Shown here: positions 234 to 46,722 of the stretch, one piece after another
Layout: the number at the start of each line of letters is the position of its first letter
Numbering within the stretch: the stretch's first letter is position 1
IMG/VR virus record: IMGVR_UViG_3300025769_000203
Span: 1-47,931 of that record
Direction: 5' to 3' (one strand)
DNA from: a virus
Length of the DNA stretch: 47,931 nucleotides
Notes under the pieces: generated by a model
What the model was told of the DNA's origin: nothing
The model's input: the letters and a program-made list of their open reading frames with translations, nothing else
The model's database searches: none
Program-made: the position numbers and the translations under genes

Positions 234-549
234 GATGGGCCCAATGGAAGCAGAAAAACAAAGCCCCGTCAACACTCCCGCCGAAGATTGCCGCTCGGTT
301 CTCGACATTGCCGCCGACCTCGTCACCGGGCACCGGAGTGTCGCCTACGGGAAGCCTCTTGAGAACCACGGCCGCACGGCCGCTTTGTGGTCGGCGTATC
401 TCGGGGTGCACATCACCGCGCAAGACGTGTGCGCGCTCAACATCTTGCAGAAGCTATCGCGCGAACGGAATTGCCCGAAGCGCGACAACCGGATCGACGT
501 CGCCGGCTACGCGGAGAACATGGACGAGTGTCACAACCCGACGCGCTAG
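232..549 (+). CDS. DUF6378 family phage protein (105 aa)
   Basis: The sequence carries the conserved core I associate with phage DUF6378 proteins: a GHRSVAYGKPLENHGRTAALW segment, then ITAQDVCALNILQKLSR, then NRIDVAGYAENM. The family has no established function that I know of. It is the only plus-strand gene among the early minus-strand genes and ends tail-to-tail with polA, the two stop codons overlapping by 4 bases. Three candidate ATGs lie at 232, 235 and 244, none with a clear ribosome-binding site, so the start is uncertain by a few residues. Possibly it is expressed separately from the replication operon. Confidence 0.8.
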   Translation: MMGPMEAEKQSPVNTPAEDCRSVLDIAADLVTGHRSVAYGKPLENHGRTAALWSAYLGVHITAQDVCALNILQKLSRERNCPKRDNRIDVAGYAENMDECHNPTR

Positions 550-2669: not shown

Positions 2670-2730
2670 GCGTTGCGTATTCGTGGTTGTGAGTCAAAGG
2701 AGAACGGCCGCCCCGGCGCGGTGTCTGAGT

Positions 2731-3369
2731 CTACCCGAGAATGTCGTCGACGTCCTCGACGGTGACCGACGTGTCGGCGGTCTCCGGTGCGGCCGCCTCG
2801 ATCGCGTCGAAGACTTCCGACGCACCTTGGCGACCGTCGAGCCTGTCACCGTCGCGCACCAACTGCACGGCGTTGATGTTGAAGCCAACACCGCTCTTGG
2901 CTTGATACTTCCAAGAGTATGCACCGATGAAGAAGCGGCACCAACAGCCGGGGTAGACCCTGGCCTCGGCGACCTTCGCCAGCTTGGCAATGTCTTCGTC
3001 GCTCGTGCCCGGTGCCGGGTTGAACACCGACTGCACGGCTTGGTCGACCACCTCGGGGCGGTAATTCGACTGCACACGCAGAGCGTGCCAGCCATCCTCG
3101 TAGCCCTTCCAGGGCTTTTGACCATTCTCCGCGCGCTCGGCGTTGATCTTGGTCACGGACTTGATCGGGCTGGCGACCTTCGTCAACCCCGCGTCCTTCG
3201 CCGCAGCAGCGGCAGCGGCCTTGATCGGGGCAAGGTCGGTGTCGGGCGGGAACAGGATCGTCGCGGAGAACACGAGGCTAGAGCCTTCGCCGAACTTCGG
3301 CTTGGCTTCGAACAGGGCGGGGAAGGCGAGCCGCGCGGGCTCGGTCTTGACTAGTTTCGGATCGGTCAT
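2731..3369 (-). CDS. Enc34-type ssDNA-binding protein (DUF2815)
   Basis: This 212-aa protein matches the DUF2815 family, whose phage Enc34 member binds single-stranded DNA through an OB-like fold. Recognisable parts are the N-terminal RLAFPALFEAKPKFGEG and SATILFPPDTDLAPIKAA, the central WHALRVQSNYRPEVVD, and GCWCRFFIGAYSWKYQ. The C terminus is acidic (VTVEDVDDILG), like the tails with which SSBs recruit partners. It sits between polA and the Cas4-like nuclease, the usual arrangement of this replication module, and probably coats the template for PolA. Confidence 0.9.
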   Translation of the reverse strand: MTDPKLVKTEPARLAFPALFEAKPKFGEGSSLVFSATILFPPDTDLAPIKAAAAAAAKDAGLTKVASPIKSVTKINAERAENGQKPWKGYEDGWHALRVQSNYRPEVVDQAVQSVFNPAPGTSDEDIAKLAKVAEARVYPGCWCRFFIGAYSWKYQAKSGVGFNINAVQLVRDGDRLDGRQGASEVFDAIEAAAPETADTSVTVEDVDDILG

Positions 3370-3384
3370 GGTGGTTACGGTTGG

Positions 3385-4518
3385 CTACTCGTCTACTGCA
3401 TCAAACACCGCCGCAGGATTGCGGGCGGGCCGTTTGTCCGACTCGGGCACGAGTAGAATGCCGGTCGTCGGTTTGTGCACGAGCGGAGCAACGAGCTTCG
3501 CACGCGCCTTGCCGAGCGCCTTCTCGGCTTTCGCCGGGGAGAGCAACTTCGGTATGTCAAAGGGCTCGATGCCCGCGTCGACGAGAGCCACACGCGCGGC
3601 GTCTTCGTCCTTCCATTTTCGTAGGCCGATCTTGTCGACCATCTTGTAGCCCGTCGGTGGCGTGCCAGCCTTGCCGAGCTCGTAAGCTCGATCCTCGACG
3701 GCCTTGAGCCACTGCCGCACGATCGGTGCCAACGTGAGGATCTTTGACAGTTCCTCGGGCGCGAGCATCTCGGGCAGCGGGGGCTTGGTAGGCACCGGGT
3801 CGAAGGCGAACTTGGCCACCTCTTGCGCTTGCGCGCGGCGGGCTTCGCAGTCGACAGCGGCGGGGCAGAAGCGGCACCCGTCTTCCGTGGGGTTGAGCGG
3901 TGCATCTTTGGCCTCGGTGGCCTTGGCGGCAGGCACTAGCTCCATGTCTCCCCAGATACGCAAGTCGCGGGCATCGCGGGGCTCCTGCCGCCAAGGCTTC
4001 GCACCCTCGTGGCGTGGCTGCACGATATGCACGACGACAGTTTCGATCGCGTATTTGTCGCCGACCTCGTCGAGCAAAGCGACGGCGTAGATCATCGCTT
4101 GCTTGTTCTGCTCGTGGTCGACGTAGACACCGGCGCCGTGCTTGTAGTCCATCACGTGCAACGTGCGGTCCACAACGGCGGCGTAGTCAACGGTGCCGTT
4201 GTCGACCGGGTCCGGTGTCGTGACCTTCTTCTCGATCCAGTCCTTGCGGATCTCGCCGAGTAGAGCCAACGAGCGCACAGCGTCGGTGTAGATCGTGACG
4301 GCGTCGACCATCTCTTGATCGCACGTGTGCTTCGCGTCCTTCGACACCGAGCCGAGCCACTGCTTTGGCTCCATGCCTTTTTCCAGGCACTCCGACGCCA
4401 CTAGGTGCGCAAAGGTGCCTTGGTCGGCGGCGTGGCTCGACGTGTAGGGGTAGGCCGCGCACTTGGCTTCGGAGCCTGGGCACGCGAACCAGCGAGTAGC
4501 GGCGGAGGGGCGGGGCAC
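3385..4518 (-). CDS. Cas4/RecB-like PD-(D/E)XK nuclease (DUF2800)
   Basis: The 377-aa protein has the DUF2800 layout. SAATRWFACPGS at the N terminus is followed by AADQGTFAHLVASE, the nuclease core VVDRTLHVMDYKHG (D117, D124, K126) and NKQAMIYA (Q140), then a C-terminal CRFCPAAVDC cluster (C215, C218, C224). Those three cysteines with C13 match the four-Cys iron-sulphur site of Cas4 and AddB nucleases. It likely resects or processes DNA ends during replication or recombination. Translation starts at GTG directly after the TAG of the upstream gene; the sequence AAGGGGGAGTAG just before it supplies a good ribosome-binding site and indicates coupling. Confidence 0.9.
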   Translation of the reverse strand: MPRPSAATRWFACPGSEAKCAAYPYTSSHAADQGTFAHLVASECLEKGMEPKQWLGSVSKDAKHTCDQEMVDAVTIYTDAVRSLALLGEIRKDWIEKKVTTPDPVDNGTVDYAAVVDRTLHVMDYKHGAGVYVDHEQNKQAMIYAVALLDEVGDKYAIETVVVHIVQPRHEGAKPWRQEPRDARDLRIWGDMELVPAAKATEAKDAPLNPTEDGCRFCPAAVDCEARRAQAQEVAKFAFDPVPTKPPLPEMLAPEELSKILTLAPIVRQWLKAVEDRAYELGKAGTPPTGYKMVDKIGLRKWKDEDAARVALVDAGIEPFDIPKLLSPAKAEKALGKARAKLVAPLVHKPTTGILLVPESDKRPARNPAAVFDAVDE

Positions 4519-5004
<486 letters not shown>

Positions 5005-5037
5005 TGTAGAAGGTCGGGGTTTCGGGGAAGGGGGTAG

Positions 5038-5211
5038 CTAAACGTCGGAAAAGTTCTCTGGGTCCGTTGCGCGGACGAGATCGGCCAGGGCGTTGCCGAC
5101 CGTGTCGGGGCCACACCAGATGCCGTCTCCACGGGCTTCCTCGGCGTCGCGAAGGTCCCGTACGGCCGTCGCGAGTAGGTGGATAGCGTCTCGGATCTCT
5201 TCGGGCGTCAT
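5038..5211 (-). CDS. Small hypothetical protein (57 aa)
   Basis: A short ORF reads MTPEEIRDAIHLLATAVRDL and ends PENFSDV. It fills the gap between the exonuclease and the AT-hook-like gene in the same direction. Its codon use matches the neighbours (strong G/C third positions) and its composition is soluble and helical. It contains a single WCG motif and no recognisable domain. The ribosome-binding site is weak (GAGTAGAAAAG before the ATG). Confidence 0.65.
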   Translation of the reverse strand: MTPEEIRDAIHLLATAVRDLRDAEEARGDGIWCGPDTVGNALADLVRATDPENFSDV

Positions 5212-5254
5212 GGTTGCTTTTCTACTCGGGGAGCATTGACAGGGTCAAGAAAAA

Positions 5255-5800
5255 TTAGGCGATTGCCTCCAAGAACTTGTGCAACGCGACTACGGCCAGG
5301 GCTTGGCGCGCGGCGTCGTGGTCGGCGCGGTGCGCCGTTGCGTATTCCTGCGGCACCGGGGGTGTCTTCACCTTGAGCTTGCGCGCGATCATCTTCGCCG
5401 TGCGGCAGCAGCGCGAGGCCGAGAAGTGCGTCGGAAAGCGGGTGCCGGGGAGCTCGCGCGTCCACGTGTGGCGCAAGAGCATTTCGTCGAAGGTCGGGCC
5501 GTTCGACCAGAAGTTCACACACGCGTGAGTGCGCACGAACTGGGCGAACTGCTCGAGCCCTTGCTTGATCGGCACGCGGAACGTCTCCGATATGACCTGT
5601 TGCGCGGCGGGCTCTTGCTTGAGCCACCACTCAACGGTCGGGCGGTCGATGCGGCCTCGAGGATCGTCGACGACGATCTCGACGGTCTCCTTGATGCCTT
5701 CGGTTAGGTGGAAGGCACAGAGGCCGATAGAAAGGATCTGCGCCCCCGGCGAAGTGCCGAGGGTTTCGAGATCTACCATGAGTTCGGTTGCTTTGGTCAT
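5255..5800 (-). CDS. DEDD 3'-5' exonuclease (Rv2179c-like)
   Basis: This 181-aa protein is a compact RNase H-fold exonuclease of the Rv2179c/RNase T-like type. The motifs are complete: Exo I MVDLETLGT (D10, E12), Exo II WSNGPTFDEMLLR (D105) and Exo III ATAHRADHDAARQA (H157, D162). The family degrades RNA or DNA 3' ends in a Mg-dependent way. The substrate here is unknown, but its place beside SNF2 and polA suggests DNA processing. Its ATG overlaps the stop of the GIY-YIG-like gene by 4 bases (ATGA), so it is translationally coupled to it. Confidence 0.9.
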   Translation of the reverse strand: MTKATELMVDLETLGTSPGAQILSIGLCAFHLTEGIKETVEIVVDDPRGRIDRPTVEWWLKQEPAAQQVISETFRVPIKQGLEQFAQFVRTHACVNFWSNGPTFDEMLLRHTWTRELPGTRFPTHFSASRCCRTAKMIARKLKVKTPPVPQEYATAHRADHDAARQALAVVALHKFLEAIA

Positions 5801-6381
5801 TCGAACGTCCTCACAGGCGACGCCTTGCGCCTCTTTTCGTAAACTCCCCAGCGGTGACGCTCCGCGACCAGTGGGCCGATGTCCTCAGCCCTCACGGTCT
5901 TGCGGACGTCAGCTCTGTCCATGACACCTATGACGGACCGGGCGAACGCCGCGTCCTCGTAAGCCATCATAAAAGCGTAGACCCCGGACTCCTCCGGCAG
6001 GCTGTCCTGGCGCTCGACTTCGCGCAGCGGGTAACGGCGGCCGGGCTCGGACATGTGGCGTTCGCGAGAGTCGCGGCAGGCACCCAACCCCGGCCACGTG
6101 ACCCCGAAGAGGGGTAACCAGAAATTCACCGCCGCCAGCTCGTAGGTGTTGAGGTCTACCGTGTCGCTACACACCCCCCAAAACCAAAGCTGGACGGGGA
6201 GTTTATCGTGCGCGTAGATCCTCTCGCCACGATATCGGTGCAGGCGCGAAAACGCATAATCCAGCCTAACCAACATTGTGTGCGGCAGTGAGAAACGTTC
6301 ACGTAGGTTGCGCGTCTGGCCGACGTAGAGACACACTTCACCGGGGGTGTCTGTTGATTCGGGAGTATCTGTCGAAGTCAT
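5797..6381 (-). CDS. GIY-YIG-like protein with rearranged or degenerate motifs
   Basis: Near the N terminus the 194-aa protein shows the YIG half of a GIY-YIG nuclease, CLYVGQTRNLRERF (about 17-30), and then a candidate catalytic Glu in YELAAVNFWLPLFG (E81). The GIY half expected about 10 residues before YVG is missing. A GIY-like segment, ESGVYAFMMAYEDAAF, appears only at about 131-146 and is followed by IGVMDRADVRKTV. It may therefore be a degenerate two-domain or permuted nuclease. It is coupled by ATGA overlaps on both sides (SNF2 upstream, exonuclease downstream). Nicking or repair of DNA is a guess from the fold. Confidence 0.7.
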   Translation of the reverse strand: MTSTDTPESTDTPGEVCLYVGQTRNLRERFSLPHTMLVRLDYAFSRLHRYRGERIYAHDKLPVQLWFWGVCSDTVDLNTYELAAVNFWLPLFGVTWPGLGACRDSRERHMSEPGRRYPLREVERQDSLPEESGVYAFMMAYEDAAFARSVIGVMDRADVRKTVRAEDIGPLVAERHRWGVYEKRRKASPVRTFE

Positions 6382-7721
6382 TCCATCACCTCTCTAATCA
6401 TTGCCGTCTTGCGGCGGAGAACGCCGACAAGCGACGCGTCGAGTGTGCCTTCGAGCGCCACGAAGCGCACAAGGCACGATTGCTTTTGGCCGATGCGCCG
6501 AATGCGGTCGGCGGCCTGGGCGTTCTCGCCCGGCACATAGCTCATCTCTACGAACACCACGTGGGCGCTTGCCGTGAGCGTGGTTCCGGTGCCGCCGGCT
6601 ACTATGTTGCACACGATCACGCGCGCCGACGGGTTCGACTGGAAGTCGGCGACCGCGTCACGGCGTGCAGTGGCGCTAGTGGCACCGGTAATGGTGGATA
6701 CGCCGAAACGCTTTAGCCGCTCTTCCAGGCGCGCCACTACCGCGCCGTGATGCGCGAACAGCACCACCTTTTCGAGACCGCCTTCGAGCTCCATCTCGAT
6801 CAGGTCTGCCGCGGCGTCGGCTTTCGCTAGCCCGCACAACCGCCGGTAGGCGGCAAACTGCTTCTTCGAACCGAGTAGCTCGAAGGCTTCCGCCGGGTCG
6901 GTGGCTTCGTCGAGCAGCTTGCGCAAGGTCGGCCCGAGCTCGCCCTCGAGTGCGGCGATCTCCTGCGGCCGTTGCGTAGCGTGCAAGTTCACCTGTTGAT
7001 ACCGCACCGGCGGCAGGTCCTTGAGCACGTCGTCTTTCTTGCGGCGAAGGATCTTGCCGGCGAGGCGCTTGCGAAGGTCGGCGACGTTCCGGTTGCCCAC
7101 GATCTTGACGTTGTCGCCGTAGGGCTGCCAACGCGTCTCGCAGTAGCGATCGCGGAAGTCGACGAACCGCTCGGGAAACTCTTCGGGCCACAAGCCGTGG
7201 AGCATCGTCCACAACTCGGACGCGTTGTTCGGTGCCGGCGTGCCGCTCAAACACCAAACGCGCTCGGCGGCGTCGACGACACCGGTCGTGCCCGGGCCGC
7301 CGTAAGGGCCGACGCCGTAGAAAGACTGCGTGCGCTTCGCCGTGTGCGAACGGAAGAAGTGCGACTCGTCCAATACGACGACGTCCCACGTGTGGCGCAG
7401 GATCTCGGCGCGCACGGTCTCGTTCAACAACAGGCCGTGCGTAACGATGACCGTATCGTTGGCCGTGATCTTGGCCGCCATGCGGCCGGCGGACACTACC
7501 GCCGGTGTCGCACGCTCCGGTGCCCACGTCTCAAACTCGCTTTTCCAGTTCCACACGACACACGTCGGCGCGAGCACCAGCACGCGCTTAGCGCCGACGA
7601 GGCCGGCCGCCGCGATGGTCGATACCGTCTTGCCGAGACCCATGTCGTCGGCGAGACAGGCGCGGGGGTTGCTCGCGAGCCACTCGGCACCGGCGGATTG
7701 GTAGGGGTAGAGCTCAAGCAC
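6378..7721 (-). CDS. SNF2-family DNA helicase/translocase
   Basis: The protein has the full SF2/SNF2 motif set: LADDMGLGKT (Walker A, about 23-32), VLVLAPTCVVWNW (Ia), VVVLDESHFF (II, DESH at 118-121), WCLSGTPAPN (III), VVLFAHHGAVV (IV), VCNIVAGGTGTTLT (V) and RIRRIGQKQS (VI, about 406-415). A longer ORF reaches 7895, but its first 58 residues are Arg/Ala-rich and lie over the upstream Cys-rich gene. I chose GTG at 7721, which has GAGGGGG about 8 bases upstream and overlaps the previous stop by 8 bases (GTGCTTGA). That gives 447 aa, beginning just before LELYPYQ, where such phage proteins usually begin. Single-domain SNF2 proteins are a standard part of this replication module. Confidence 0.95.
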   Translation of the reverse strand: MLELYPYQSAGAEWLASNPRACLADDMGLGKTVSTIAAAGLVGAKRVLVLAPTCVVWNWKSEFETWAPERATPAVVSAGRMAAKITANDTVIVTHGLLLNETVRAEILRHTWDVVVLDESHFFRSHTAKRTQSFYGVGPYGGPGTTGVVDAAERVWCLSGTPAPNNASELWTMLHGLWPEEFPERFVDFRDRYCETRWQPYGDNVKIVGNRNVADLRKRLAGKILRRKKDDVLKDLPPVRYQQVNLHATQRPQEIAALEGELGPTLRKLLDEATDPAEAFELLGSKKQFAAYRRLCGLAKADAAADLIEMELEGGLEKVVLFAHHGAVVARLEERLKRFGVSTITGATSATARRDAVADFQSNPSARVIVCNIVAGGTGTTLTASAHVVFVEMSYVPGENAQAADRIRRIGQKQSCLVRFVALEGTLDASLVGVLRRKTAMIREVME

Positions 7722-7974
7722 CGCCCGCCCCCTCGCCGCCAGCCGCCCGCAGCTTCGCGTTCTCCCCCGCCAGCCGCTCGCACTCCATGCACGAGCCGGT
7801 CTTGCCGCGCAGGGTTTCGAGTTCGGCCAGCGGCATGTGCCACTCGTGGCCTCGGGTTGCGCAGATCTCGCATAACAACCGCCACTCACCACCATCCTGG
7901 TCGTCCCTGCCGACGTGCGTGGCCTGTAGCGTCTCGCACATGTCGCACGGGTTGGTTACGTCGTGCTCAGCCAT
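7714..7974 (-). CDS. Small CxxC zinc-binding-like protein (86 aa)
   Basis: Starting at ATG 7974 the protein reads MAEHDVTNPCDMCETLQATH and contains three CxxC pairs (CDMC, CEIC, CMEC), consistent with one or two structural zinc sites. The C-terminal part (MECERLAGENAKLRAA) looks helical. A longer in-frame start at 8019 exists, but 7974 has a GGGGTGG ribosome-binding site and an 8-base overlap (ATGGCTGA) with the upstream stop. The function is unknown; it is embedded in the early operon next to SNF2. Confidence 0.75.
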   Translation of the reverse strand: MAEHDVTNPCDMCETLQATHVGRDDQDGGEWRLLCEICATRGHEWHMPLAELETLRGKTGSCMECERLAGENAKLRAAGGEGAGGA

Positions 7975-8176
7975 TGTCACCACCCCGCTTCGCCAGCTCA
8001 TCCAACGAGTGCGCAACATTGACCCGCATCGTCACCTTGTCACCGAGACTGACTAGGCAGTCAGAGCACAGAACGACCGACGTCCCGGAGAACCTGATCT
8101 CGGTGGCGTCATCTGGTGTGTTGCTGCACCCATCGCAACGCCCACGTTCCGTGGCCCATTCGAGTATGCGGATCAT
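7967..8176 (-). CDS. Small CxxC protein (69 aa)
   Basis: From ATG 8176 the protein begins MIRILEWATERGRCDGCSNT and has CDGC and CSDC pairs about 21 residues apart, a likely treble-clef or zinc-ribbon arrangement. AAGGAG lies about 9 bases before this ATG. The longer ORF up to 8251 starts with a Pro/Ala stretch that lacks such a site. Its last codons (GGDNG) contain the ribosome-binding site of the next gene. Confidence 0.7.
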   Translation of the reverse strand: MIRILEWATERGRCDGCSNTPDDATEIRFSGTSVVLCSDCLVSLGDKVTMRVNVAHSLDELAKRGGDNG

Positions 8177-8189
8177 TCCTGTTGCTCCT

Positions 8190-8285
8190 TCAGCTCCCGC
8201 AACTCGCGCCGCAGCTTGCGGCACCGTTCGCGGTGGTGGTTGGCGCGACAACGACGAACAGCAGCACGATGACAGCGCCTAGCAT
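8190..8285 (-). CDS. 31-aa small membrane or secreted peptide
   Basis: An ORF of 31 codons (MLGAVIVLLFVVVAPTTTAN...) has the best Shine-Dalgarno in the region, GAAGGAGG ending 7 bases before the ATG. It overlaps the upstream TAG by 7 bases. The N terminus is one hydrophobic helix. Its second half is Thr/Ser/Cys/Gly-rich, whereas the -1 frame over the same bases encodes a charged helical tail (RCRKLRRELRELKEQQE) that stops at 8173, overlapping the next ATG by 4 bases. The real product may therefore be a TM helix plus charged tail joined by a frameshift. Confidence 0.5.
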   Translation of the reverse strand: MLGAVIVLLFVVVAPTTTANGAASCGASCGS

Positions 8286-8515
8286 GGCTTGGCCTCCTTC
8301 GCCTTCTTGCGAGCGATGCGCGCTTTGGCCTTCTCCATTTCCTCGTCGGTCGCGAAGGTGAACTTGACGTCCACCTTGCTCCATCCGGTCTCGGCGTCGC
8401 CCCATTTCTCGGCGTTCGCATCGTCCGCACGCTGATTCGCCACGCGTAGCTGCTCCATTAGGTCCCAACCTGCTCGAACCAGCTCGGCCCTAGATCGTGA
8501 GAAGGGGTCATCCAT
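8279..8515 (-). CDS. Hypothetical protein (78 aa)
   Basis: This small soluble, helical protein runs from MDDPFSRSRAELVRAGWDLM to a basic end (EKAKARIARKKAKEAKPC). I placed the start at ATG 8515 because GGAGG lies 5-6 bases before it and it overlaps the DUF3307-like stop by 8 bases (ATGGATGA). The ATG at 8527 has no such site. No domain is recognised. Its 3' end carries the strong ribosome-binding site of the 31-aa ORF. Confidence 0.7.
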   Translation of the reverse strand: MDDPFSRSRAELVRAGWDLMEQLRVANQRADDANAEKWGDAETGWSKVDVKFTFATDEEMEKAKARIARKKAKEAKPC

Positions 8516-8843
8516 TGATGCCTCCATGGGTTGCCAGGATGGCCACGTATGCGATCTTGCAGAGCAAGTGCATTCCTTGGTCTTGGTTGAAGGTCAGGTA
8601 GCCCCTGCACTTCGCATCGTCGATTGCCGCGTGCAACACCAACTCCATCAGCGCGCACATCAGAGACCCCGTTGCTGCCATGACGACGCCAGCATGGATG
8701 GCCGCATGAGCGAACAGGGCATGCCAGAACGGGACGCCCGGAATCGGGTTGGTGGCGTTCTTGGCGCGTGAGAGGAAGTCGCCTTGCAACGGGTAGTCAG
8801 CAACGCAATGGCCAACGACGAGCCAGAAGAGAAGCTCAGCCAT
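8508..8843 (-). CDS. DUF3307-like membrane protein (111 aa)
   Basis: The sequence is mostly hydrophobic helices with polar landmarks typical of DUF3307: HCVADYPLQGDFLSRAKN near the N terminus, WHALFAHAAIHAG in the middle, and AAIDDAKCRGYLTFNQDQGMHL toward the end. Three to four membrane segments are likely. The family is found in phages and bacteria, and its function is not established. The start at ATG 8843 is preceded by GGGGAGG and overlaps the upstream stop by 8 bases. Confidence 0.75.
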   Translation of the reverse strand: MAELLFWLVVGHCVADYPLQGDFLSRAKNATNPIPGVPFWHALFAHAAIHAGVVMAATGSLMCALMELVLHAAIDDAKCRGYLTFNQDQGMHLLCKIAYVAILATHGGING

Positions 8844-9051
8844 TGTCGCCACCTCCCCGCCCCACGTTGATGTTCTCGACGCTCAGCCACACCCGGACAA
8901 CCTTGGCGTCGGGGCACGGTCGACCACGGCTGAGGAGTCCTTGGCGCGTCGGCTCCGTCCAGTGGCACAACTGCCACTTGCGTCCGTCCGGGGTTGGGAC
9001 CGCCCACGCATAGACTCGCGGTGCTCTGCCTCGGATATCGCTGGCCTCCAT
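8836..9051 (-). CDS. Hypothetical protein (71 aa)
   Basis: From ATG 9051 the protein reads MEASDIRGRAPRVYAWAVPT and continues as a compact strand-rich protein with WQLCHW and VRVWLSVENINVG. GGAGGTGG lies about 7 bases before the ATG, and the start overlaps the upstream stop by one base (TGATG). The C-terminal GGGDNG codons double as the ribosome-binding site for the membrane protein gene downstream. No family is recognised. Confidence 0.65.
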   Translation of the reverse strand: MEASDIRGRAPRVYAWAVPTPDGRKWQLCHWTEPTRQGLLSRGRPCPDAKVVRVWLSVENINVGRGGGDNG

Positions 9052-9836
9052 CACTTGCCACCTCCCGTCGCCCGCCGCGCCAGCTCGCTGCGGCTCAGCT
9101 CTTGGACAGCCTTCCGCAGAACGTCTGGATTGGCCCAAGAGACTAGGACCCGCTCAAGAGGTGCGTCGTCCGGCCGCTCGGCTTCTTGGGCGGGCTTCTT
9201 GGCTGGCTCGGAGAGCAGGCGGTCGATCTTGCCTTCTGCGCGAGTCAAACACACTCGATAGCCTTCACGCTCCATCCTTGCCCTTGCCGACTCGCCTTTC
9301 GTACGCGCCACGCACTCGTCGCTAGGCTGCACGGCCCTCGCCTTCTCGACCGTCTCCTTGATCCGCCCCTCGTCCAGCGGCTTCGGCTCGACCGCTAGCT
9401 TGGCCTGCTCGTCTGGGGTGTAGGTGGGTTCGATCGACGTGATCCACTCGGCGACCTTCCTGCGCGGCTCCGGGCACGTCTTACATAGCACCACTTCAAG
9501 CACCCAGTCTTTGACGAAGTCCGGCACCTGCACCGCGCTCGGCGGCGGGGTGAGCTTGAGCTTGGCGAGGTCGTTGACTATCTCGTCAGCCTCAAGCCCT
9601 TTGCGCTCCATCCCAGCCTGATCGCCAGGATCCAGCTCGCACCATGCGACGGACCGCTCCACCAGCCCGGCCAACTTCGCAGGCTGCGCAGCGGGGGCGG
9701 TGCGCATCAGTTCAAGCCCTACCGTCAACTGGTCGGCGCTAATGTACGCCAGCGAGTTGCTCTTGAGCTGGAGGGCCAAAGGCTCGCCCCACGCCTCGAC
9801 GGCCTTGTCGTGTTCGGTCTTGTCCGTATCGCTCAT
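9051..9836 (-). CDS. Hypothetical protein, first gene of the minus-strand operon (261 aa)
   Basis: No domain is recognised. The protein is mixed charged and helical (KLAGLVERSVAWCELDPGDQ, GRIKETVEKARAVQ) with an isolated CKTCPEPRRKVAEWI motif and a basic C terminus. It is the promoter-proximal gene of the early operon and faces the primase operon across a 385-base control region. A TAGATT hexamer lies 5 bases before its ATG and could be a -10 box, but no matching -35 is evident. Confidence 0.75.
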   Translation of the reverse strand: MSDTDKTEHDKAVEAWGEPLALQLKSNSLAYISADQLTVGLELMRTAPAAQPAKLAGLVERSVAWCELDPGDQAGMERKGLEADEIVNDLAKLKLTPPPSAVQVPDFVKDWVLEVVLCKTCPEPRRKVAEWITSIEPTYTPDEQAKLAVEPKPLDEGRIKETVEKARAVQPSDECVARTKGESARARMEREGYRVCLTRAEGKIDRLLSEPAKKPAQEAERPDDAPLERVLVSWANPDVLRKAVQELSRSELARRATGGGK

Positions 9837-10221: not shown

Positions 10222-10235
10222 ATGGAAAAGAATAG
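10173..10235 (+). CDS. 20-aa leader ORF overlapping the primase start
   Basis: An ATG at 10173 opens MSNTAERARLKAMEASHGKE and stops at 10235, 14 bases inside the primase gene. The ORF spans the loop and right arm of the hairpin described at 10152-10197. Ribosomes translating it would disrupt that arm and end next to the primase start, so it could couple or attenuate primase translation. It is short enough to be chance. Confidence 0.3.
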   Translation: MSNTAERARLKAMEASHGKE

Positions 10236-12408
10236 CCACCACGACCCCGCCCAGCAAGGCGGCGTGCCCGAAGAGCTACGGCAACTCAACCAGTGGATCC
10301 GCTGGAAGCTCGAGCTAAACCGGCAAGGCCGGAAAACGAAGATCCCCTACCACCCCAACGGCGAGCAGCAATTCGCCACGAGCCGCGACGAGCCCTATAC
10401 GTTCGAGAACGTGCTCGGCAAAGGTGATTGCGACGAGACCGAGGGCATTGGCTTCGTGCTGCGCACCGACGGCGACGGTGTCAAACACCCAACAGGCTTG
10501 GACTGCACTCTAGTAGCGATCGACGCCGACGGCTGTCGTGACCCGCTCACCGGTGCCCTTACGCCTTGGGGCCGCGAGCTCTTCGAACTGACGGGCCGCA
10601 CCTACACCGAGGTATCGCCCAGCGGTTGCGGGTTCCGGGCGTTCGTGTGGGTAGACAATCTGCCAACCGACCTTGCACGCTCCAAGGTCAAGGTGCCGCA
10701 CCCCGCCGCGCCGAACGTGCCAGAATACAAGGCCGTCGAGGTCCAGCTCTTCACCACGACCGGATACGTCACCGTCACCGGTGAACGGCTCATCGAGGCT
10801 AGCGCACTCATCGAGCGCAAGCCCTCGCTCGATTGGCTCACGTCGGTCTACCCGCAGTTTCGCGAACAGGACCGCGACACGGGCAAGCTACCCGTCGGCC
10901 GCGGCGACGCTCCGACAGTGGAGCAGATCGGCGCCGAGATCAACCGCTCAGCACCCAACGTGCGCGAAGCCGTCGTCGACGCCAACTGGCCCGCGATCAT
11001 GCCGAACGACGAGGGCTCAGCCTCAGAAGGCTACTATCGCGTTGTGCAGCACGTGCTGCGCGCGGCCCACGGCCACGGCGCCCCCGCAGTCGACTACCTG
11101 CTCCAAGAAACCGACTGGGGCCTCGGCCTGTGCGACGACTCAGCCGACCCGCTCAAATACGCCCGAAGGAATTGGGTGCGCAAAGAGGTCGGGCGCGTCG
11201 GTGGCAAGGCGTCAACCACCAACGCGGCGGAAGCCTTCGACGACGGCTTCGATGCGAAGACGTGGACACCAGACGAGACCGCGACACCGGAGTCCAAGCG
11301 GTCGGTCATCCTCGACCTGTTCCCCAGCGCCCCACGGCGTTGGAGCCGTAACCGACCACCGGACCGGCGCTTTCTGTTACGGCACCCCGAAGACGACGCC
11401 GGCGCGCTGCCGCTCGGCGAGGTCGGTATCCTCAGCGCCGAAGGCGGCGCCGGCAAGACAACCGCCGTTGTGCAACTGGCGATCGCCATTGCGACCGGTG
11501 GCCGTTGGTTCGGGCATTACAAGATCGACGAAGGGGCACCGAACCGGGTGCTCGCACTGCTCGGTGAAGAAGACCAGGAAGAGTGCGACCGCAAGCTCTA
11601 TTGGGCCGCGCACCGCCTCGGGCTCAGCGACGAACAAGTGCGCATTGCGGAGGATCGTATAACCATGGTGCCCCTCGCCGGCCACTACACCCCGCTTCTA
11701 CGGCCAGGGCCCAACGGACCCGAAGCCACCGAGCACGGCGGCGCTATCCGCGACGTCCTCAACACACCCGGCGACCCCTGGGGCTTGGTCATCGTTGACC
11801 CCCTGTCGCGCTTCGCTGGCGTCAACGTCGAGGCGGACAACATCGACGCTACGCGCTTCATCGTCGAGCTCGAGTCGTTCTGCAAGGCTCCAGGGACACC
11901 GACGACGTTGTGCCTAGCTCACTCGTCCAAGGCGGCGAGGCGGCTGGGTGAGGCCGACAACCGTGGTGTGACCGGGTTGACGGACGGCGCCCGGTGGTGG
12001 GGCACCCTCGTCAACGCCGGCAAGGAACGCGCTCGGTTCGACGTGCGCAAGAGCAACTACACACGCCCAGCCGAAGAGCTTGGCCTCGTGCGTGGCGAAC
12101 TCGGCGTGCTGCAAGTGGAGTCGACGGCCGACAAGGAAGCACGCAAGGCGATCGAAGTCGAAGACGCCGCCAGCAGGGAGCTACGCAAGGAACGCGAGAG
12201 GCACGACCACATCGGACGACTCTTGGCGCGCCTCGTGGATACGATCCTGCGCATACCGGGACTGTCGAAATCCCAGGCGTGCGCGGAGACCGTCGGCAAG
12301 CGTGCCGACCTCATGGAAGCACTCGACAGGGGCCTTGCCAACGGGACGCTCGAGGGGCACCGTGAGGGCTCACGGATGGTGCTCACCGTCGCGGAGATAT
12401 TCAGATAA
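10222..12408 (+). CDS. PrimPol-like primase fused to RepA/RecA-type helicase ATPase
   Basis: The 728-aa protein is a two-part replication initiator. The N-terminal part resembles the archaeo-eukaryotic primase/bifunctional primase-polymerase fold: TLVAIDADGCRD (about 96-107, metal-binding acidic pair), TEVSPSGCGFRAFVWV (129-144) and VQLFTTTGYVTVTG. The C-terminal part is a RecA-fold AAA_25/RepA-like ATPase: Walker A AEGGAGKTT (about 407-415) and Walker B WGLVIVDPLSRF (about 520-530), then CLAHSSK. The tail (LARLVDTILRIPGLSKSQAC...) looks like a winged helix. It opens the plus-strand operon, and the iteron array lies directly after its stop. This suggests it primes and unwinds at that site. 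Confidence 0.9.
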   Translation: MEKNSHHDPAQQGGVPEELRQLNQWIRWKLELNRQGRKTKIPYHPNGEQQFATSRDEPYTFENVLGKGDCDETEGIGFVLRTDGDGVKHPTGLDCTLVAIDADGCRDPLTGALTPWGRELFELTGRTYTEVSPSGCGFRAFVWVDNLPTDLARSKVKVPHPAAPNVPEYKAVEVQLFTTTGYVTVTGERLIEASALIERKPSLDWLTSVYPQFREQDRDTGKLPVGRGDAPTVEQIGAEINRSAPNVREAVVDANWPAIMPNDEGSASEGYYRVVQHVLRAAHGHGAPAVDYLLQETDWGLGLCDDSADPLKYARRNWVRKEVGRVGGKASTTNAAEAFDDGFDAKTWTPDETATPESKRSVILDLFPSAPRRWSRNRPPDRRFLLRHPEDDAGALPLGEVGILSAEGGAGKTTAVVQLAIAIATGGRWFGHYKIDEGAPNRVLALLGEEDQEECDRKLYWAAHRLGLSDEQVRIAEDRITMVPLAGHYTPLLRPGPNGPEATEHGGAIRDVLNTPGDPWGLVIVDPLSRFAGVNVEADNIDATRFIVELESFCKAPGTPTTLCLAHSSKAARRLGEADNRGVTGLTDGARWWGTLVNAGKERARFDVRKSNYTRPAEELGLVRGELGVLQVESTADKEARKAIEVEDAASRELRKERERHDHIGRLLARLVDTILRIPGLSKSQACAETVGKRADLMEALDRGLANGTLEGHREGSRMVLTVAEIFR

Positions 12409-12410
12409 TG

Positions 12411-12562
12411 GTGGTTCCCCACCAGTTCCTAGTCGGTTCCCAGGAACTAGAGGAATCGCCAAGGAAACGGTTCCCCAGTTCCCAGTTCCCCAACCCGTAT
12501 ATACGGGTTGGGGAACTGGGGAACCGTTCCGTATTTCCGATTAACCAAAGACAGCGAAAAGA
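12411..12562. other. Candidate replication origin: iteron array, 40-bp palindrome and AT-rich stretch
   Basis: Nine copies of an 8-mer of the form RGTTCCYM lie within 113 bases. Direct copies start at 12413, 12424 and 12435 (11-base steps, about one helical turn) and at 12469, 12477 and 12484. Inverted copies occupy 12442-12449, 12510-12517 and 12518-12525. They are followed by an unusually AT-rich stretch (about 12526-12580) for this GC-rich genome. Iterons next to a helicase gene and an AT-rich unwinding element are the hallmark of theta-type origins. An operator cluster controlling the next genes is the alternative. Confidence 0.7.
12481..12520. repeat. Perfect 40-bp palindrome
   Basis: The left half CCCAGTTCCCCAACCCGTAT is followed immediately by its exact reverse complement with no spacer. 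It contains one direct and one inverted iteron, and flanking repeats allow an outer arm to extend with a small bulge (GGTTCCCC at 12469 with GGGGAACC at 12518). No T-run follows on either strand, so it is unlikely to be a terminator. A cruciform or dimer-binding site in the origin fits better. Confidence 0.85.
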
Positions 12563-12688
12563 ATGGAAAATAATCAGCAAGAATTAGCGCGCGTCGCGCT
12601 CTACGTCGGCAGCTCCCGGTGCCTGAGAAAGCGGCTCGACCACGGCCGGGGCACAGCGCCCCGTGCTGAGTGGGGTTGCGGTGGGTAA
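12563..12688 (+). CDS. 41-aa ORF with a lone YIG motif (GIY-YIG remnant or mini-protein)
   Basis: The ORF starts MENNQQELARVALYVGSSRC and continues LRKRLDHGRG. The VALYVGSSRCLRKRL segment matches the YIG half of GIY-YIG nucleases and resembles LYVGQTRNLRERF in the minus-strand GIY-YIG-like gene of this genome. There is no GIY half and no catalytic Glu, since about 50 residues of the domain are missing. Its stop overlaps the nuclease start downstream in the 8-base form GTGGGTAA, suggesting it is translated. It begins within the AT-rich side of the putative origin. Confidence 0.5.
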   Translation: MENNQQELARVALYVGSSRCLRKRLDHGRGTAPRAEWGCGG

Positions 12689-13022
12689 GGCCCAACGTGA
12701 CAAGGGCAAGCGTGGCGAGCTCCTGCTCCGCGACGTCTTGCGCCGCGCCGGGTGGCCCCACGCCGAGCGAGGGCAGCAGCGCCACGGTGGCCCGGATTCC
12801 CCCGACGTTCGCGGTGGACCGAAAGGGGTCCATTTCGAGTGCAAGTTCGTGGAGGCCCTCAGCACGCGCGTGGCGCTCGATCAGGCTAGGGCCGACGCAG
12901 GGCCGGGGGAGATCCCGATCGTGGCACACAAGCGCGAGCGGAGGCCCTGGGTGGCAATCATGGACCTCGACGACGTGCTGGGCTTGCTCTACGAACTCGA
13001 AGTGCGGAGAATTACGGAATGA
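12681..13022 (+). CDS. PD-(D/E)XK nuclease, Holliday-junction-resolvase-like
   Basis: The 113-aa protein has the small PD-(D/E)XK layout: KGKRGELLLRDVLRRAGW with a leading Glu, then GGPDSPDVRGG (metal Asp), then GVHFECKFVE (E-C-K catalytic pair), then a Gln-containing helix VALDQARADAG and PIVAHKRERRPWVAIM. The size and arrangement resemble resolvase or VRR-NUC-type nucleases common in phage replication modules. GTG at 12681 is chosen because it overlaps the previous stop (GTGGGTAA) with GAGTGGGG upstream; GTG at 12663 is the longer alternative. It likely resolves recombination or replication branches. Confidence 0.8.
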   Translation: MGKAQRDKGKRGELLLRDVLRRAGWPHAERGQQRHGGPDSPDVRGGPKGVHFECKFVEALSTRVALDQARADAGPGEIPIVAHKRERRPWVAIMDLDDVLGLLYELEVRRITE

Positions 13023-13060: not shown

Positions 13061-13525
13061 ATGAGCGACAAAACCACACAAGGGAGGCCGCCACTAAAGC
13101 CGCTCGTGCTTAACGAGCGGCAGGCCGCCGCGTTGGTCAAACGTAGCCTTTCGACCGTAAGACACTGGCGCGAGACCCGGTGGCTGCCTTGGGTTCGGTT
13201 GTCGCCGCGCCGGGTAGGCTACTTCGCCGAAGACCTGCATTTTCTCAACGGGGGGCCTCTGCCGGCCCTGCCTGATATACGGGCAGGGTTAGAGCGAGGC
13301 TTGCAGGGGCGCACAATGCTTAACGCGGCAGAGGTTTCTAGGCTAACAGGGCTGGCCCCTCGTACTGTGTGGGTGGGCATCAAGGGTGGTTGGTTGCCCG
13401 CGGTTGTCGACGGCCCGTACTACCACGTGCGGGCGTGTGATCTTGTTGATTGGCTGCTGGGGCGCCGGGTGGGCGCGACCGAGACGCCGCGTCGTCGTCG
13501 TCTGGTGGGCCGGGTGGACGCGTGA
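13061..13525 (+). CDS. Tandem helix-turn-helix DNA-binding protein
   Basis: The 154-aa protein contains two HTH_17/MerR-like repeats. The first is LNERQAAALVKRSLSTVRHW followed by WLPWVRLSPRRVGYFAEDL. The second is LNAAEVSRLTGLAPRTVWVG followed by GWLPAVVDGPYYHVRACDLV. They are clearly internal duplicates. The end is very basic (TPRRRRLVGRV). It could be a regulator or a terminase-associated DNA-recognition subunit, since it heads the packaging operon. It has its own promoter-like element just upstream and overlaps the oxygenase gene by 4 bases (GTGA). Confidence 0.75.
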   Translation: MSDKTTQGRPPLKPLVLNERQAAALVKRSLSTVRHWRETRWLPWVRLSPRRVGYFAEDLHFLNGGPLPALPDIRAGLERGLQGRTMLNAAEVSRLTGLAPRTVWVGIKGGWLPAVVDGPYYHVRACDLVDWLLGRRVGATETPRRRRLVGRVDA

Positions 13526-14214
13526 CGCAACGGCAAGACAAGTTCGTCAAGCTGGATGGCTTCATGCTTGACGATTGGGCAAGTGCGTTCCTGGCCTACG
13601 CGAACGCTCGAGACGCCGACCTCGTCGACGTGCACGGCTACGGTGTCGACGAACCGTATGCCACCAATAACGACGGACCGCAAACGTGCGGGCACATCTA
13701 CTTCGACGACGGCGACGAGTTCCTCGCCGGCTTGTCCGCCGCGTTCCTCGAGAACTTCGAATACGGTTGTCGGCAATGCGGCGTCGAGCCCTTCGAGATC
13801 GCGCACTTCGAATCGAAGCTGACACTTCGTTGGGACAACCAGCGGTTCGACTGGCACTCGGACCACCGCGCCGATGGCGACCCCGAGACGCGCGCGCTGA
13901 CCGTGACCTACAACGTGCACAAGACGCCGCGGCTCTTCACCGGCGGCGAGCTTGAGCTCTACGACGTCGAGAAGCCCATCGACCCGACGCACAACTCGGC
14001 CGTCTTCTTCGCGCCGTATCAGGTGCACCGAGTGCGGCCCGTGGCTGGCGTGCCGCGCGCGCATCGTAGCTTCGGTCGCTGGACGTTCGTTGGTTGGTTC
14101 CACGCGAAAGAGCCCGTTGTGCCGGCGATGCTTCTCGACCCCCACGACCCGCACCCGTTCTTGACGAGCACACTGGCCAGGAAACGGCTATTCTCTGAGG
14201 CGTCTACACGATGA
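13522..14214 (+). CDS. 2OG-Fe(II) oxygenase, prolyl-4-hydroxylase-like (230 aa)
   Basis: The protein has the double-stranded beta-helix dioxygenase motifs: DWHSDH (H112, D114) for iron, a distal His in YQVHRVRP (H169), and a 2-oxoglutarate-binding Arg in SFGRWTFVGWFH (R186). LFTGGELELYD (139-148) is the segment usually seen in P4H-type enzymes. I start at GTG 13522 (MTQRQDKFVK), which overlaps the HTH stop by 4 bases. The upstream in-frame extension is Ser/Gly-rich shadow of the HTH gene. The substrate is unknown: protein Pro/Lys or a DNA base are the options. A second member of the family lies at the end of the late region. Confidence 0.88.
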   Translation: MTQRQDKFVKLDGFMLDDWASAFLAYANARDADLVDVHGYGVDEPYATNNDGPQTCGHIYFDDGDEFLAGLSAAFLENFEYGCRQCGVEPFEIAHFESKLTLRWDNQRFDWHSDHRADGDPETRALTVTYNVHKTPRLFTGGELELYDVEKPIDPTHNSAVFFAPYQVHRVRPVAGVPRAHRSFGRWTFVGWFHAKEPVVPAMLLDPHDPHPFLTSTLARKRLFSEASTR

Positions 14215-16256: not shown

Positions 16257-16430
16257 ATGGAAGACCACGAAAGATCGCAGGTGTGTGAAGTTGTTGAGGA
16301 CGTCAAACACCAAGGGCTGACTAATCAGCAGTTGGTAGCGGTTGCCTTGGGGTTGATTCAAGATGCATTGATGCTTACGGACTACCCGAACGAAGCCCTT
16401 GCCGTAATGCTGGGGGGCGCTCGTGCGTGA
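16257..16430 (+). CDS. Small hypothetical protein before the methyltransferase (57 aa)
   Basis: This short ORF reads MEDHERSQVCEVVEDVKHQG and ends EALAVMLGGARA. It follows the promoter/operator at 16222 and overlaps the methyltransferase GTG by 8 bases (GTGCGTGA). Its codons are less GC-rich than the neighbours (GTT, TTG, AAT), hinting at a different origin. It is helical and acidic. It could be a small regulator of the methyltransferase, but nothing identifies it. Confidence 0.65.
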   Translation: MEDHERSQVCEVVEDVKHQGLTNQQLVAVALGLIQDALMLTDYPNEALAVMLGGARA

Positions 16431-17418
16431 GCTTCATCTATTCGCCGGTGCGGGGGGCGGCCTCCACGCCGCGAACCTGCTCGGACATACGCCCGTGTGC
16501 GCCGTGGAGATCGAACCCTACTGCCGACAGGTATTGCGTGAGCGGCAGGCCGACGGCACCTTTCCGCCGTTCCCGGTGTTCGACGACGTCAAGACGTTCG
16601 ACGGTAAGCCGTGGCGCGGTATTGTTGACGTCGTCTGCGGAGGGTTCCCGTGCCAGCCGTGGAGTTCCGCGGGTAAGCGCAAGGGCACCGACGACCCCCG
16701 CCACCTTTGGCCAGAAATGGCCCGCGTCATCAGTGAGGCTCGACCACGATATGTCTTCGCAGAAAACGTCAACATCAAAGCATTCGCCGAGCCCTGGAGA
16801 GACCTTCGAGCAATGGGTTACCGAGTGCCGCCAGCTCTCTGCCTCAGTGCGGAAGACGTTGGCGCACCACACTTGCGAAAGCGGTGGTGGCTCTTGGCTT
16901 CCGACACCAACCGCGACGAGCTACGGGACGAACCGCGGCGGCGCAGCGGGGCGGGTGGGCAAAGTGAGGCACTCGCTAGCGTCGATGGCGAAGCACGACA
17001 AGTTCCCGACACCGACGGCGAATTGCCACACGGGAGCGGGGCACAGCGGGCGACAGGGCGGGCTAAATCTACAGACGCATGCGCAGCGGTTCCCGACGCC
17101 GACGGCGAAGGCGAAGGCGAACCAGCTATCCCCGTCGATGATGAAGCACCCGGGGTGCCGGGAGTTGGCGAAGTTTCCGACGCCGGCGGCGCGAGACTGG
17201 AAGGACACGGGCAAAGCCCCCGCGGAGCTCGCGCGGAAGACACCGCCGCTAGCGACCCACGCTGGTGGGCAGTTGAACCCGACGTGGGTCGAGTGGCTCA
17301 TGGGGTGGCCAATCGGGTCCAGCGCCTCAAAGCACTGGGCAACGGCCAAGTCCCGCAGTGCGCGGCGGAAGCGTGGCGAATCTTGATGGCGCGCGAAGCG
17401 GAGTACGTGCTGTCGTGA
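16423..17418 (+). CDS. C5-cytosine DNA methyltransferase (Dcm-type)
   Basis: The 331-aa protein has motif I LHLFAGAGGGLHAANLLG (5-22), motif IV VCGGFPCQPWSSAGKRKG with catalytic C77, motif VI FAENV (112-116), motif VIII DVGAPHLRKRWWLL (145-158) and motif X VQRLKALGNGQVPQCAAEAW near 300. It methylates cytosine C5 using AdoMet, probably to protect phage DNA or mark it for packaging. The target-recognition part (about 160-270) is low-complexity in this frame (Asp/Gly/Ala/Arg). The +1 frame over the same bases encodes a well-formed alternative C-terminal half. Start GTG 16423 is coupled to the small ORF before it, with a G-run upstream. Confidence 0.93.
   Translation: MRELHLFAGAGGGLHAANLLGHTPVCAVEIEPYCRQVLRERQADGTFPPFPVFDDVKTFDGKPWRGIVDVVCGGFPCQPWSSAGKRKGTDDPRHLWPEMARVISEARPRYVFAENVNIKAFAEPWRDLRAMGYRVPPALCLSAEDVGAPHLRKRWWLLASDTNRDELRDEPRRRSGAGGQSEALASVDGEARQVPDTDGELPHGSGAQRATGRAKSTDACAAVPDADGEGEGEPAIPVDDEAPGVPGVGEVSDAGGARLEGHGQSPRGARAEDTAASDPRWWAVEPDVGRVAHGVANRVQRLKALGNGQVPQCAAEAWRILMAREAEYVLS
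16890..17386 (+). other. Alternative (+1) frame over the methyltransferase C-terminal half
   Basis: The +1 frame stays open to 17386 and carries repeated PTPTA motifs: SWLPTPTATSYGTNRGG, KFPTPTANCH, RFPTPTAKAK and KFPTPAARDWKDTG, then QLNPTWVEWLMGWPIG. These are signatures I know from another large group of phage cytosine methyltransferases with the same N-terminal catalytic half. A +1 slip soon after RWWLLA would yield that type. Dual coding, a frameshifted product or relic sequence are the possibilities. Confidence 0.6.
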
Positions 17419-17636
17419 TCGTCTACCGCACAGAAGCGAGCACCGGCGACGGCCTCGTCCATCATTTCGACGCCACGCTCGAAGAGGCGAAGCGCACGCG
17501 CGCTTCGCTCGTCGAGGTATACGCAGAGGTCCGACTCGAGCGAGTCGAGATCCCGCCCGGCCGCGAGGGCATTGTCGCGGCACTCAACATGGCAACCGCA
17601 TCGGCGGTAAACTGGGAAGGAGAAAGAATCGCATGA
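17415..17636 (+). CDS. Hypothetical protein (73 aa)
   Basis: The protein begins MIVYRTEASTGDGLVHHFDA and continues with strand-helix-strand character (EEAKRTRASLVEVYAEVRLE). It starts at GTG overlapping the methyltransferase stop by 4 bases (GTGA) and ends overlapping the next ORF by 4 bases. No family is recognised. By position it belongs to the methyltransferase transcription unit. Confidence 0.65.
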   Translation: MIVYRTEASTGDGLVHHFDATLEEAKRTRASLVEVYAEVRLERVEIPPGREGIVAALNMATASAVNWEGERIA

Positions 17637-17794
17637 GACGCTACGAACACAAGAAGCCCACCCCGTTCGCCACGTTCTTCAAGGCAACGCTTGGGGTCCT
17701 GCTCGCCGGTGTCGCTGCGCTCACGATATTCGCTGGGGGGTGTTGCGGCCTCGTGGTGGGTGCGGCCTCGAGCGTTGACGCGAAGGAAAAGTAA
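17633..17794 (+). CDS. Small single-TM protein (53 aa)
   Basis: The ORF reads MRRYEHKKPTPFATFFKATL, then a hydrophobic helix (LGVLLAGVAALTIFAGGCCGLVVGAA) and a short charged end. The basic N terminus suggests an N-in topology. The start overlaps the previous stop (ATGA), with AAGGAG upstream. The function is unknown. The paired Cys residues lie at the outer membrane face of the helix. Confidence 0.65.
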   Translation: MRRYEHKKPTPFATFFKATLGVLLAGVAALTIFAGGCCGLVVGAASSVDAKEK

Positions 17795-17804
17795 GGCCGT
17801 GCCG

Positions 17805-17834
17805 TTGACACCGCGCAGGTTTACCGAGTATGGT
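17805..17834 (+). promoter_or_regulatory. Promoter TTGACA-18-TATGGT, 7 bases before the ATG
   Basis: A consensus -35 TTGACA (17805-17810) is followed after 18 bases by TATGGT (17829-17834), and 7 bases later by the ATG at 17842. No Shine-Dalgarno fits between, so the transcript is probably leaderless. It would drive the PP-loop gene. Confidence 0.65.
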
Positions 17835-17841
17835 CTAGCTC

Positions 17842-18618
17842 ATGGGTAGCACAAACAACGCGCCGGTAGCCGTGAGCTACGGCGGAGGCACGAACAGCGT
17901 CGCCATGGTTATCGGCATGCTCGAGAACCGCGAGTTGCCGGATCACATTCTATTCGCGGACACCGGGAGCGAACGCCCTGAAACCTACGCATACAACACG
18001 CTGTTCGATGCGTGGCTCAGCGACTACGGCCTCAAGATTACGACAGTGACAAACGGCGGCCGGGGCTACGGCGACTCGCTCGAAGAGAATTGCCTCATGC
18101 GCAACGAGCTCCCTTCGCTCGCCTACGGCTTCAAAGGTTGTTCTACCAAGTGGAAGCGCCAACCGATGGACCGCTACTTGCGCGACGAGGTGCCGGAGGT
18201 CAAAGCGGCTTGGTCGCGCGGCGAGCTTGTAGCTCGGTGCATTGGCATTGACGCCGGTGAGACGCGGCGGCGCAAGCTGCCGCCGGACAACCGCTACGTC
18301 TACCGCTACCCCCTCGTTGATTGGGGGTGGGACCGCGAAGCGTGCGTCGACGCGGTGAAACGCCACGGGCTCCCGAGCCCCGGCAAGAGCAGTTGTTTCT
18401 TCTGCCCCGCGATGAAGAAGCACGAGATTCGCGATCTTGCCGAGAAACACCCCGCGCTAGTCGACCGCGCGATCGCGATCGAGCGCAACAGCAAGGCGCA
18501 CACGATCAAAGGTCTCGGGCGTCATTGGTCGTGGGAGCAGTTCCTCGCCGACGACCAAAGTTACTTCCCCGAAACCCTCGACGTGCCCTGCGATTGTCAC
18601 GACGGAGACGAAGAGTAA
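17842..18618 (+). CDS. PAPS-reductase-like PP-loop protein
   Basis: The 258-aa protein belongs to the PP-loop ATPase superfamily of PAPS reductase/CysH and DndC. VSYGGGTNSVAM (11-22) is the PP-loop and HILFADTGSERPETYAY (35-51) the next conserved block. Cys residues cluster at GFKGCSTKW (C100), SSCFFCPAMKKHEI (C185, C188) and CDCHDGDEE (C250, C252), which could hold an iron-sulphur cluster or act in sulphur transfer. Phage versions are common, and their role (sulphate assimilation, or thiolation of nucleic acid) is unsettled. The methyltransferase nearby makes nucleic-acid modification attractive but unproven. No other Dnd gene is present. Confidence 0.85.
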   Translation: MGSTNNAPVAVSYGGGTNSVAMVIGMLENRELPDHILFADTGSERPETYAYNTLFDAWLSDYGLKITTVTNGGRGYGDSLEENCLMRNELPSLAYGFKGCSTKWKRQPMDRYLRDEVPEVKAAWSRGELVARCIGIDAGETRRRKLPPDNRYVYRYPLVDWGWDREACVDAVKRHGLPSPGKSSCFFCPAMKKHEIRDLAEKHPALVDRAIAIERNSKAHTIKGLGRHWSWEQFLADDQSYFPETLDVPCDCHDGDEE

Positions 18619-46227: not shown

Positions 46228-46722
46228 ATGAAGCACGCACTAACCGACCGGACAACCCTTGTCCTTCTCGCGATTTGTTTCGCACTCCTGACCCTCGCCG
46301 GATGCACCGCCGCCGAGGTCGCATCCGCCGGCGCAACGATCGCCGCGCTCGGTGCCGCTGCGCAAGGCTTGCTTGACGTCGCCGCGCCGTTGATGAGCCC
46401 CGAAGACTTCGCCACCTTCCGCGAAGGCGTAACCACGCTCGACGGCGGCGTGCAAGCGACGAAATCGGTGCTCGGCGCGATCGTCGACGCCTTCGAAGGC
46501 TTCCGCGACGGGGTCAACGCCAAGAACGCCACGGTAGCTATGACGCTGCAAGAGCAGGCTACCGCGCTCATCCAGCACGCCGCGGAGATCGAGGGCAAGC
46601 CCTCTACGGGCGAAGTCGTTCTCTACGGCACCGGTGGCGGCAGCGCCGGTGGCACGGCGGTCTCGCGCATCCTGTCCATGCTCAAGCACGGCGTGCCCGC
46701 GAAGGCACCGAAGGTGGCCTAA
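46228..46722 (+). CDS. Lipoprotein (164 aa)
   Basis: MKHALTDRTTLVLLAICFAL is a signal peptide with lipobox LAGC (C26). The mature part is helical and Ala-rich (SAGATIAALGAAAQGLLDVA, VAMTLQEQATALIQHAAEIE), ending in a Gly-rich and basic tail. An outer-membrane partner for the single-TM proteins upstream (o-spanin-like) is one option, although at 164 aa it is longer than usual Rz1-type proteins. Superinfection exclusion is another. Confidence 0.65.
   Translation: MKHALTDRTTLVLLAICFALLTLAGCTAAEVASAGATIAALGAAAQGLLDVAAPLMSPEDFATFREGVTTLDGGVQATKSVLGAIVDAFEGFRDGVNAKNATVAMTLQEQATALIQHAAEIEGKPSTGEVVLYGTGGGSAGGTAVSRILSMLKHGVPAKAPKVA

Follow-up and report, generated by a model that had tools for sequence, protein, structure and literature searches.

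Short iterons placed immediately 3' of the gene for an initiator helicase, whose C-terminal domain binds them, are known from the rep-ori of SaPI/PICI elements and from the cch2-ori of SCCmec (PMC6092414, PMC7581432). The locus described here, in the virus record IMGVR_UViG_3300025769_000203 (47,931 bp; the window, meaning the whole stretch of DNA that was analysed), shares this arrangement. As in that class, repeats exceeding chance were found 3' of a helicase gene, together with an adjacent AT-rich element and a predicted C-terminal DNA-binding domain. The strict features of PICIs were absent, as the helicase is of the AAA_25/RepA type, whereas SaPI, PICI and SCCmec elements use DUF927 or D5_N/Primase_Cterm helicases, and the AT-rich stretch lies on one side of the repeats, whereas in PICIs such a region sits between two sets of iterons and there is no 40-bp palindrome.

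Experimental precedent for the repeat itself is provided by the Streptomyces theta plasmid pWTY27, whose origin contains five GTGGGAAC and five TTCCCAC repeats, long inverted repeats and AT-rich regions beside repA and the primase/polymerase gene repB; RepA binds the inverted repeat in EMSA and DNase I footprinting, and replication is bidirectional (PMC3583192). According to the published description, pWTY27 and the window share the GTTCCC core and the placement of direct and inverted repeats inside a long inverted repeat, and RepB is of the PrimPol type, like the window protein. The two differ in that pWTY27 is a plasmid with a separate primase (RepB) and binder (RepA), whereas the phage encodes a single 728-aa protein. 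The repeat family had been regarded as new when the locus was first noticed; because the footprinted pWTY27 repeats carry the same core, "not entirely" new is the more accurate description. The locus probably represents an iteron-origin class already known, located 3' of the initiator gene, with a repeat core that has experimental precedent.

In pRN1, a hairpin directly 3' of the gene for ORF904, a protein of the PrimPol-helicase-winged-helix type, is essential as origin (PMC4234260). Protein type and hairpin position are the same in the window, but pRN1 differs by an SF3 helicase in place of the RepA/RecA type, by a 58-nt loop where the window palindrome is gapless, and by having no iterons described as essential. 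The RepA of the IncQ plasmid RSF1010 (PDB 1g8y) belongs to the same hexameric helicase family as the window protein. RSF1010 differs in having one further protein, RepC, for iteron binding and another, RepB, for priming.

A 127-bp direct repeat was found at the termini of the window, which is therefore likely to be a complete circular genome (47,804 bp). The features of the locus and its surroundings were as follows.

546 to 9836, minus strand: leftward replication module with a family-A DNA polymerase, gp2.5-like SSB, DUF2800 exonuclease, a further exonuclease and an SNF2 helicase (Pfam/PHROGs)
10222 to 12408, plus strand: initiator candidate, 728 aa, with a PrimPol-like N-terminus, a RepA/AAA_25 RecA-type helicase (about residues 394-572) and a predicted C-terminal winged helix (about 675-723)
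12413 to 12442, plus strand: three direct iterons spaced exactly 11 bp apart (GGTTCCCC, AGTTCCTA, GGTTCCCA; pattern scan)
12442 to 12448, minus strand: inverted iteron AGTTCCT (AGTTCCTG), a near-match that abuts the third direct iteron
12469 to 12491, plus strand: three tandem direct iterons (12469, 12477, 12484), spaced 8 and 7 bp (pattern scan)
12481 to 12520, no strand: perfect 40-bp palindrome without a gap, CCCGTATATACGGG at its centre, in which iterons face one another (sequence analysis)
12510 to 12525, minus strand: two inverted iterons (12510, 12518; pattern scan)
12527 to 12586, no strand: candidate DNA unwinding element, with the highest AT content of any 60 bp in the genome (composition scan of the circle)
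12663 to 13022, plus strand: next gene, RusA/Hjc-like Holliday-junction nuclease (PHROG 244, E 1.9e-18)

The first repeat starts 5 bp past the stop codon of the PrimPol-RepA gene. Eight exact RGTTCCYM octamers (12413+, 12424+, 12435+, 12469+, 12477+, 12484+, 12510-, 12518-) were found by pattern scan of the window, all within 113 bp (12413-12525). Because only 7 more occur in the remainder of the 47.8-kb circle, 0.027 would be expected in 180 bp, giving a Poisson probability for eight or more of about 6e-18. The original prediction counted nine octamers, which was slightly generous, because the one at 12442- fits only seven of the RGTTCCYM positions; the three copies exactly 11 bases apart, the perfect palindrome, the AT-rich stretch behind the repeats and the location right after the helicase gene were all as it had described. 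After the first three iterons, spacings are 7, 27, 8, 7, 27 and 8 bp.

No other palindrome in the window exceeds 22 bp, 18 bp less than the 40-bp one, for whose length fewer than 1e-6 are expected, and a second, shifted inverted register has its arms at 12466-12483 and 12511-12528. As single-stranded DNA, the array region folds at -43.4 kcal/mol, compared with -20.5 +/- 2.9 for shuffled sequences (z = -7.9). No Rfam family matched the region. The palindrome was also considered as a terminator and rejected; it is without a T-run, and the sole terminator-like site found is elsewhere. Such a strong perfect hairpin might instead be the nick site of a rolling-circle origin, a reading published for the similar pRN1 stem-loop (cited in PMC4234260). 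We consider this very unlikely, as no HUH Rep was recognised among the scanned proteins, the phage encodes its own polymerase, SSB and helicase, and replication of pWTY27, whose repeats have this core, is bidirectional (PMC3583192).

The AT-rich stretch, which flanks the array on one side only, has 33% GC, the genome minimum, the second-lowest 60 bp having 42%. An analysis of GC skew had been proposed as a check and gave no clear signal: over the circle, the detrended skew had no extreme at 12.4 kb, its extremes being at 1.3 and 26.8 kb, and a local dip near 10 kb was attributable to divergent gene orientation there. From 12563 onward, the original interval, 12411-12590, overlaps the start of a 41-aa ORF (MENNQQELARVALYVGSSRCLRKRLDHGRG..., 12563-12688). 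This ORF, which may be a real small gene, starts within the AT-rich stretch, and its end overlaps a GTG that could serve as start codon for the nuclease gene.

The 728-aa protein gave a Pfam match to AAA_25 (E 7e-24), a primase/helicase annotation in PHROGs, and PDB sequence matches to viral primases and RSF1010 RepA (1g8y, E 1e-4); its RepA/AAA_25 domain places it in the RSF1010 RepA helicase family. An AF2 model of the last 128 residues, built from nine sequences of array-flanked relatives, predicted a winged helix (pLDDT about 95) with helices spanning 683-689 and 694-707, followed by a wing of two strands (710-723). Compared with the PDB by Foldseek, the model matched chiefly winged-helix proteins with moderate scores, none at E <= 0.001; among viral models, the best matches were phage RepA, AAA and Prim_Pol proteins. 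A profile of the winged helix matched proteins encoded before arrays in the window, L045, L178, L202, L226, L265, L277, L099, L173 and both genes of L278, although the profile is small and all of its array-flanked matches except L099 and L173 were themselves profile members. Searched alone by tblastn against plasmids, the winged helix gave no match. On the plasmid pKRAD02, a gene of the same type encodes an AAA-ATPase in which a winged-helix-like motif (RGRP) occurs; the 3' end of this gene contains nine GTTCC sites (GTGGTTCC array) and a dyad, and no other initiator was recognised on pKRAD02.

The Foldseek matches included, among many others, the plasmid centromere-binding folds AspA and TubR, and together with tandem sites spaced 11 bp apart this resemblance would fit a centromere for the partition of a phage-plasmid. 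A centromere is very unlikely, as none of the scanned subset of the window's ORFs was recognised as ParA/ParB-type, and the genes that precede the array in relatives encode helicases, not Par proteins. The predicted winged helix, which is common to its array-flanked relatives, lends indirect support to binding of the iterons by the 728-aa protein.

Relatives were sought to determine the generality of the arrangement. A DNA-similarity search with the window found none, direct protein searches retrieved no close relative of either the 728-aa protein or the SNF2 helicase, and relatives of the terminase were without such repeat clusters. A two-sequence alignment of the 728-aa protein with that of L202, a locus first found by its repeat pattern, was then used as query and retrieved eight viral and five genomic relatives, one of them being L202 itself (as L279), to which more were added by tblastn in phage and plasmid records. 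L279 thus depends on the repeat search, while the remaining protein-found relatives are independent of it. The L202/L279 protein is 34% identical to the 728-aa protein across the helicase and C-terminus; the flanks are unrelated, and the L279 gene stops 5 bp ahead of its own GTTCCC array.

In 20 genes, the window included, a 300-bp segment surrounding the stop codon was examined for a repeated hexamer relative to dinucleotide shuffles, and a strongly significant iteron array was found in 9, or 8 of the 19 relatives without the window; of the remaining 300-bp segments of these loci, only 2.4% contain six or more copies. The other 11 of the 19 had no strongly significant array in the helicase 3' flank, so that the arrangement is not universal. 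Presence of the repeats in relatives with the same replication genes had been set in advance as a test of the prediction, and a GTTCC iteron was indeed present behind the homologous gene in L202/L279, L288 and Rhizobium phage RHph_Y3_1, and other iterons (GTACC, CGGTTAC, GGTGAAA, TCCGCAG, CGTCCA) lay at the same position elsewhere, GTACC being that of L278, and L284 and L290 likewise being among the loci with an iteron other than GTTCC. A conserved array position with a variable iteron is expected of a target that co-evolves with its binder. Facing iterons around a short GC-rich hairpin, with a stem beyond that of shuffles, were found in L215 (19), L278 (14) and L265 (11) and not in the others; the 21-bp stem of the window is the extreme among the dyads compared.

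Two of these arrays, both unannotated, stand after DUF927/MCM-like helicase genes, in Thermoanaerobacterium phage THSA-485A (L292:5407-5720; GGTTAC) and Faecalibacterium phage Epona (L293:5653-5950; GGTGAAA). In each, SaPI-like iteron sets surround an AT-rich gap, and they are likely the replication origins of these two phages.

In the converse search, viral contigs were scanned for tandem or inverted GTTCCC, which gave many arrays, coding repeats being set aside; many pattern matches were dropped as collagen-like coding repeats or isolated matches. The ORFs beside the arrays were mostly initiator helicases and PrimPol/Toprim proteins. The 72 array-adjacent ORFs, antisense frames among them, were scanned against Pfam and yielded AAA_25 (19), Toprim_3 (12), DUF927 (11), Prim-Pol (10), DUF7146 (9) and VapE (6), the exceptions being integrases (4) and a resolvase (1), and a PHROGs scan agreed; GTTCC having been the selection criterion, these counts speak to position and are no evidence on their own of a preference for this motif. 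A restriction of the motif to a single protein family was rejected, because several helicase classes share it.

In prophage loci that, from the impression given by their sequences, we take to be Rhodobacteraceae-like, the array lies within the last 290 bp of the primase coding sequence. In L263, L242, L206, L247, L272, L192 and L167, the array is inside the 3' end of a gene for a primase of about 980 aa, where it translates as GEPGEPGEP ... GSPGSPGSP, origin and protein tail sharing sequence.

These positions bear on whether the array is an operator, with repressor sites or autoregulation of the helicase and downstream genes, instead of an origin. Initiators commonly autoregulate through their own iterons, and the array lies upstream of co-directional genes (the 41-aa ORF, the nuclease and a 154-aa helix-turn-helix protein). 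Against regulation as its function, a search limited to sigma-70-like promoters found none in 12300-12800, the Rhodobacteraceae-like arrays sit inside the primase 3' coding end, many unrelated phages have the same gene class beside the array, and the AT-rich element is a genome extreme. An operator function is thus unlikely.

GTTCC arrays were also observed immediately after tyrosine integrase genes (L129, L203, L238, L274), where they may represent arm-type sites or else mark the far side of a replication gene in convergent orientation. That a few arrays of other contigs adjoin integrases, together with the Holliday-junction nuclease and terminase genes near the window array, might point to a recombination, packaging or att site. 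There is little chance of this, as no integrase was present among the scanned ORFs, the terminase-side genes begin 1.6 kb off, and the array of the relatives follows the initiator, not the terminase.

The repeat array, the compositional extreme beside it and the array position in relatives all support the proposed function, as do the predicted winged helix, the two gene-array pairs of contig L278, the array of pKRAD02 and the precedents of pWTY27, pRN1, SaPI/PICI and SCCmec, and we conclude that 12409-12590 is very probably the theta-type replication origin of the phage, directly 3' of its initiator gene. The events that we infer, including binding, unwinding (melting), initiation and the direction of replication, may proceed as follows. 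Copies of the 728-aa protein would use their C-terminal winged helix to bind the RGTTCCC iterons, and the facing iterons of the palindrome would allow two protein sets to form in head-to-head orientation, perhaps accompanied by extrusion of the hairpin. The AT-rich stretch next to the array would then open and RepA-type helicase rings would load onto the single strands, after which the PrimPol domain would prime synthesis and the phage family-A polymerase and SSB would extend.

For the window phage alone, an origin at this position is expected biology; of more interest is that several classes of helicase make use of one iteron core. A natural test of cognate pairing between winged helix and iteron is provided by L278, in which two RepA/winged-helix ORFs (2005-4056 and 5419-6336, the second being the C-terminal part only) are separated by 2 kb and each has an iteron array of its own behind it (GTACC and GTTCC). 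In all GTTCC cases the residue after the glycine preceding the recognition helix is K or R (GKR, GRR, GRK, GRP), while the single GTACC case has GNR, one example being too few for a rule. We tentatively suggest, with more doubt than confidence, that RGTTCC(C) is one origin code for RepA/AAA_25, DnaB-like, DUF927, VapE and Toprim-DUF7146 initiators in phages of very different GC, their C-terminal winged helices having been exchanged or having converged, and that the tip residues before the recognition helix (G-K/R vs G-N) determine one-base variants such as GTACC. If the origin reading is right, the origins of many uncultivated phages could be found from sequence alone, by looking for an iteron array just 3' of the PrimPol/RepA, DUF927 or VapE gene, and ready winged helix/iteron pairs, two of them in one contig, would be available for testing how initiators choose their origin.

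Elsewhere in the window, the 2OG-Fe(II) oxygenase family PHROG 61 was matched by two separate ORFs (13450-14214 and 46722-47435). A DNA methyltransferase gene followed by a PAPS-reductase-like gene (16423-18618) indicates possible DNA modification functions. Within a 1353-aa ORF, positions 42001-44000 have 70-77% GC and include a 22-bp palindrome at 42067-42088.
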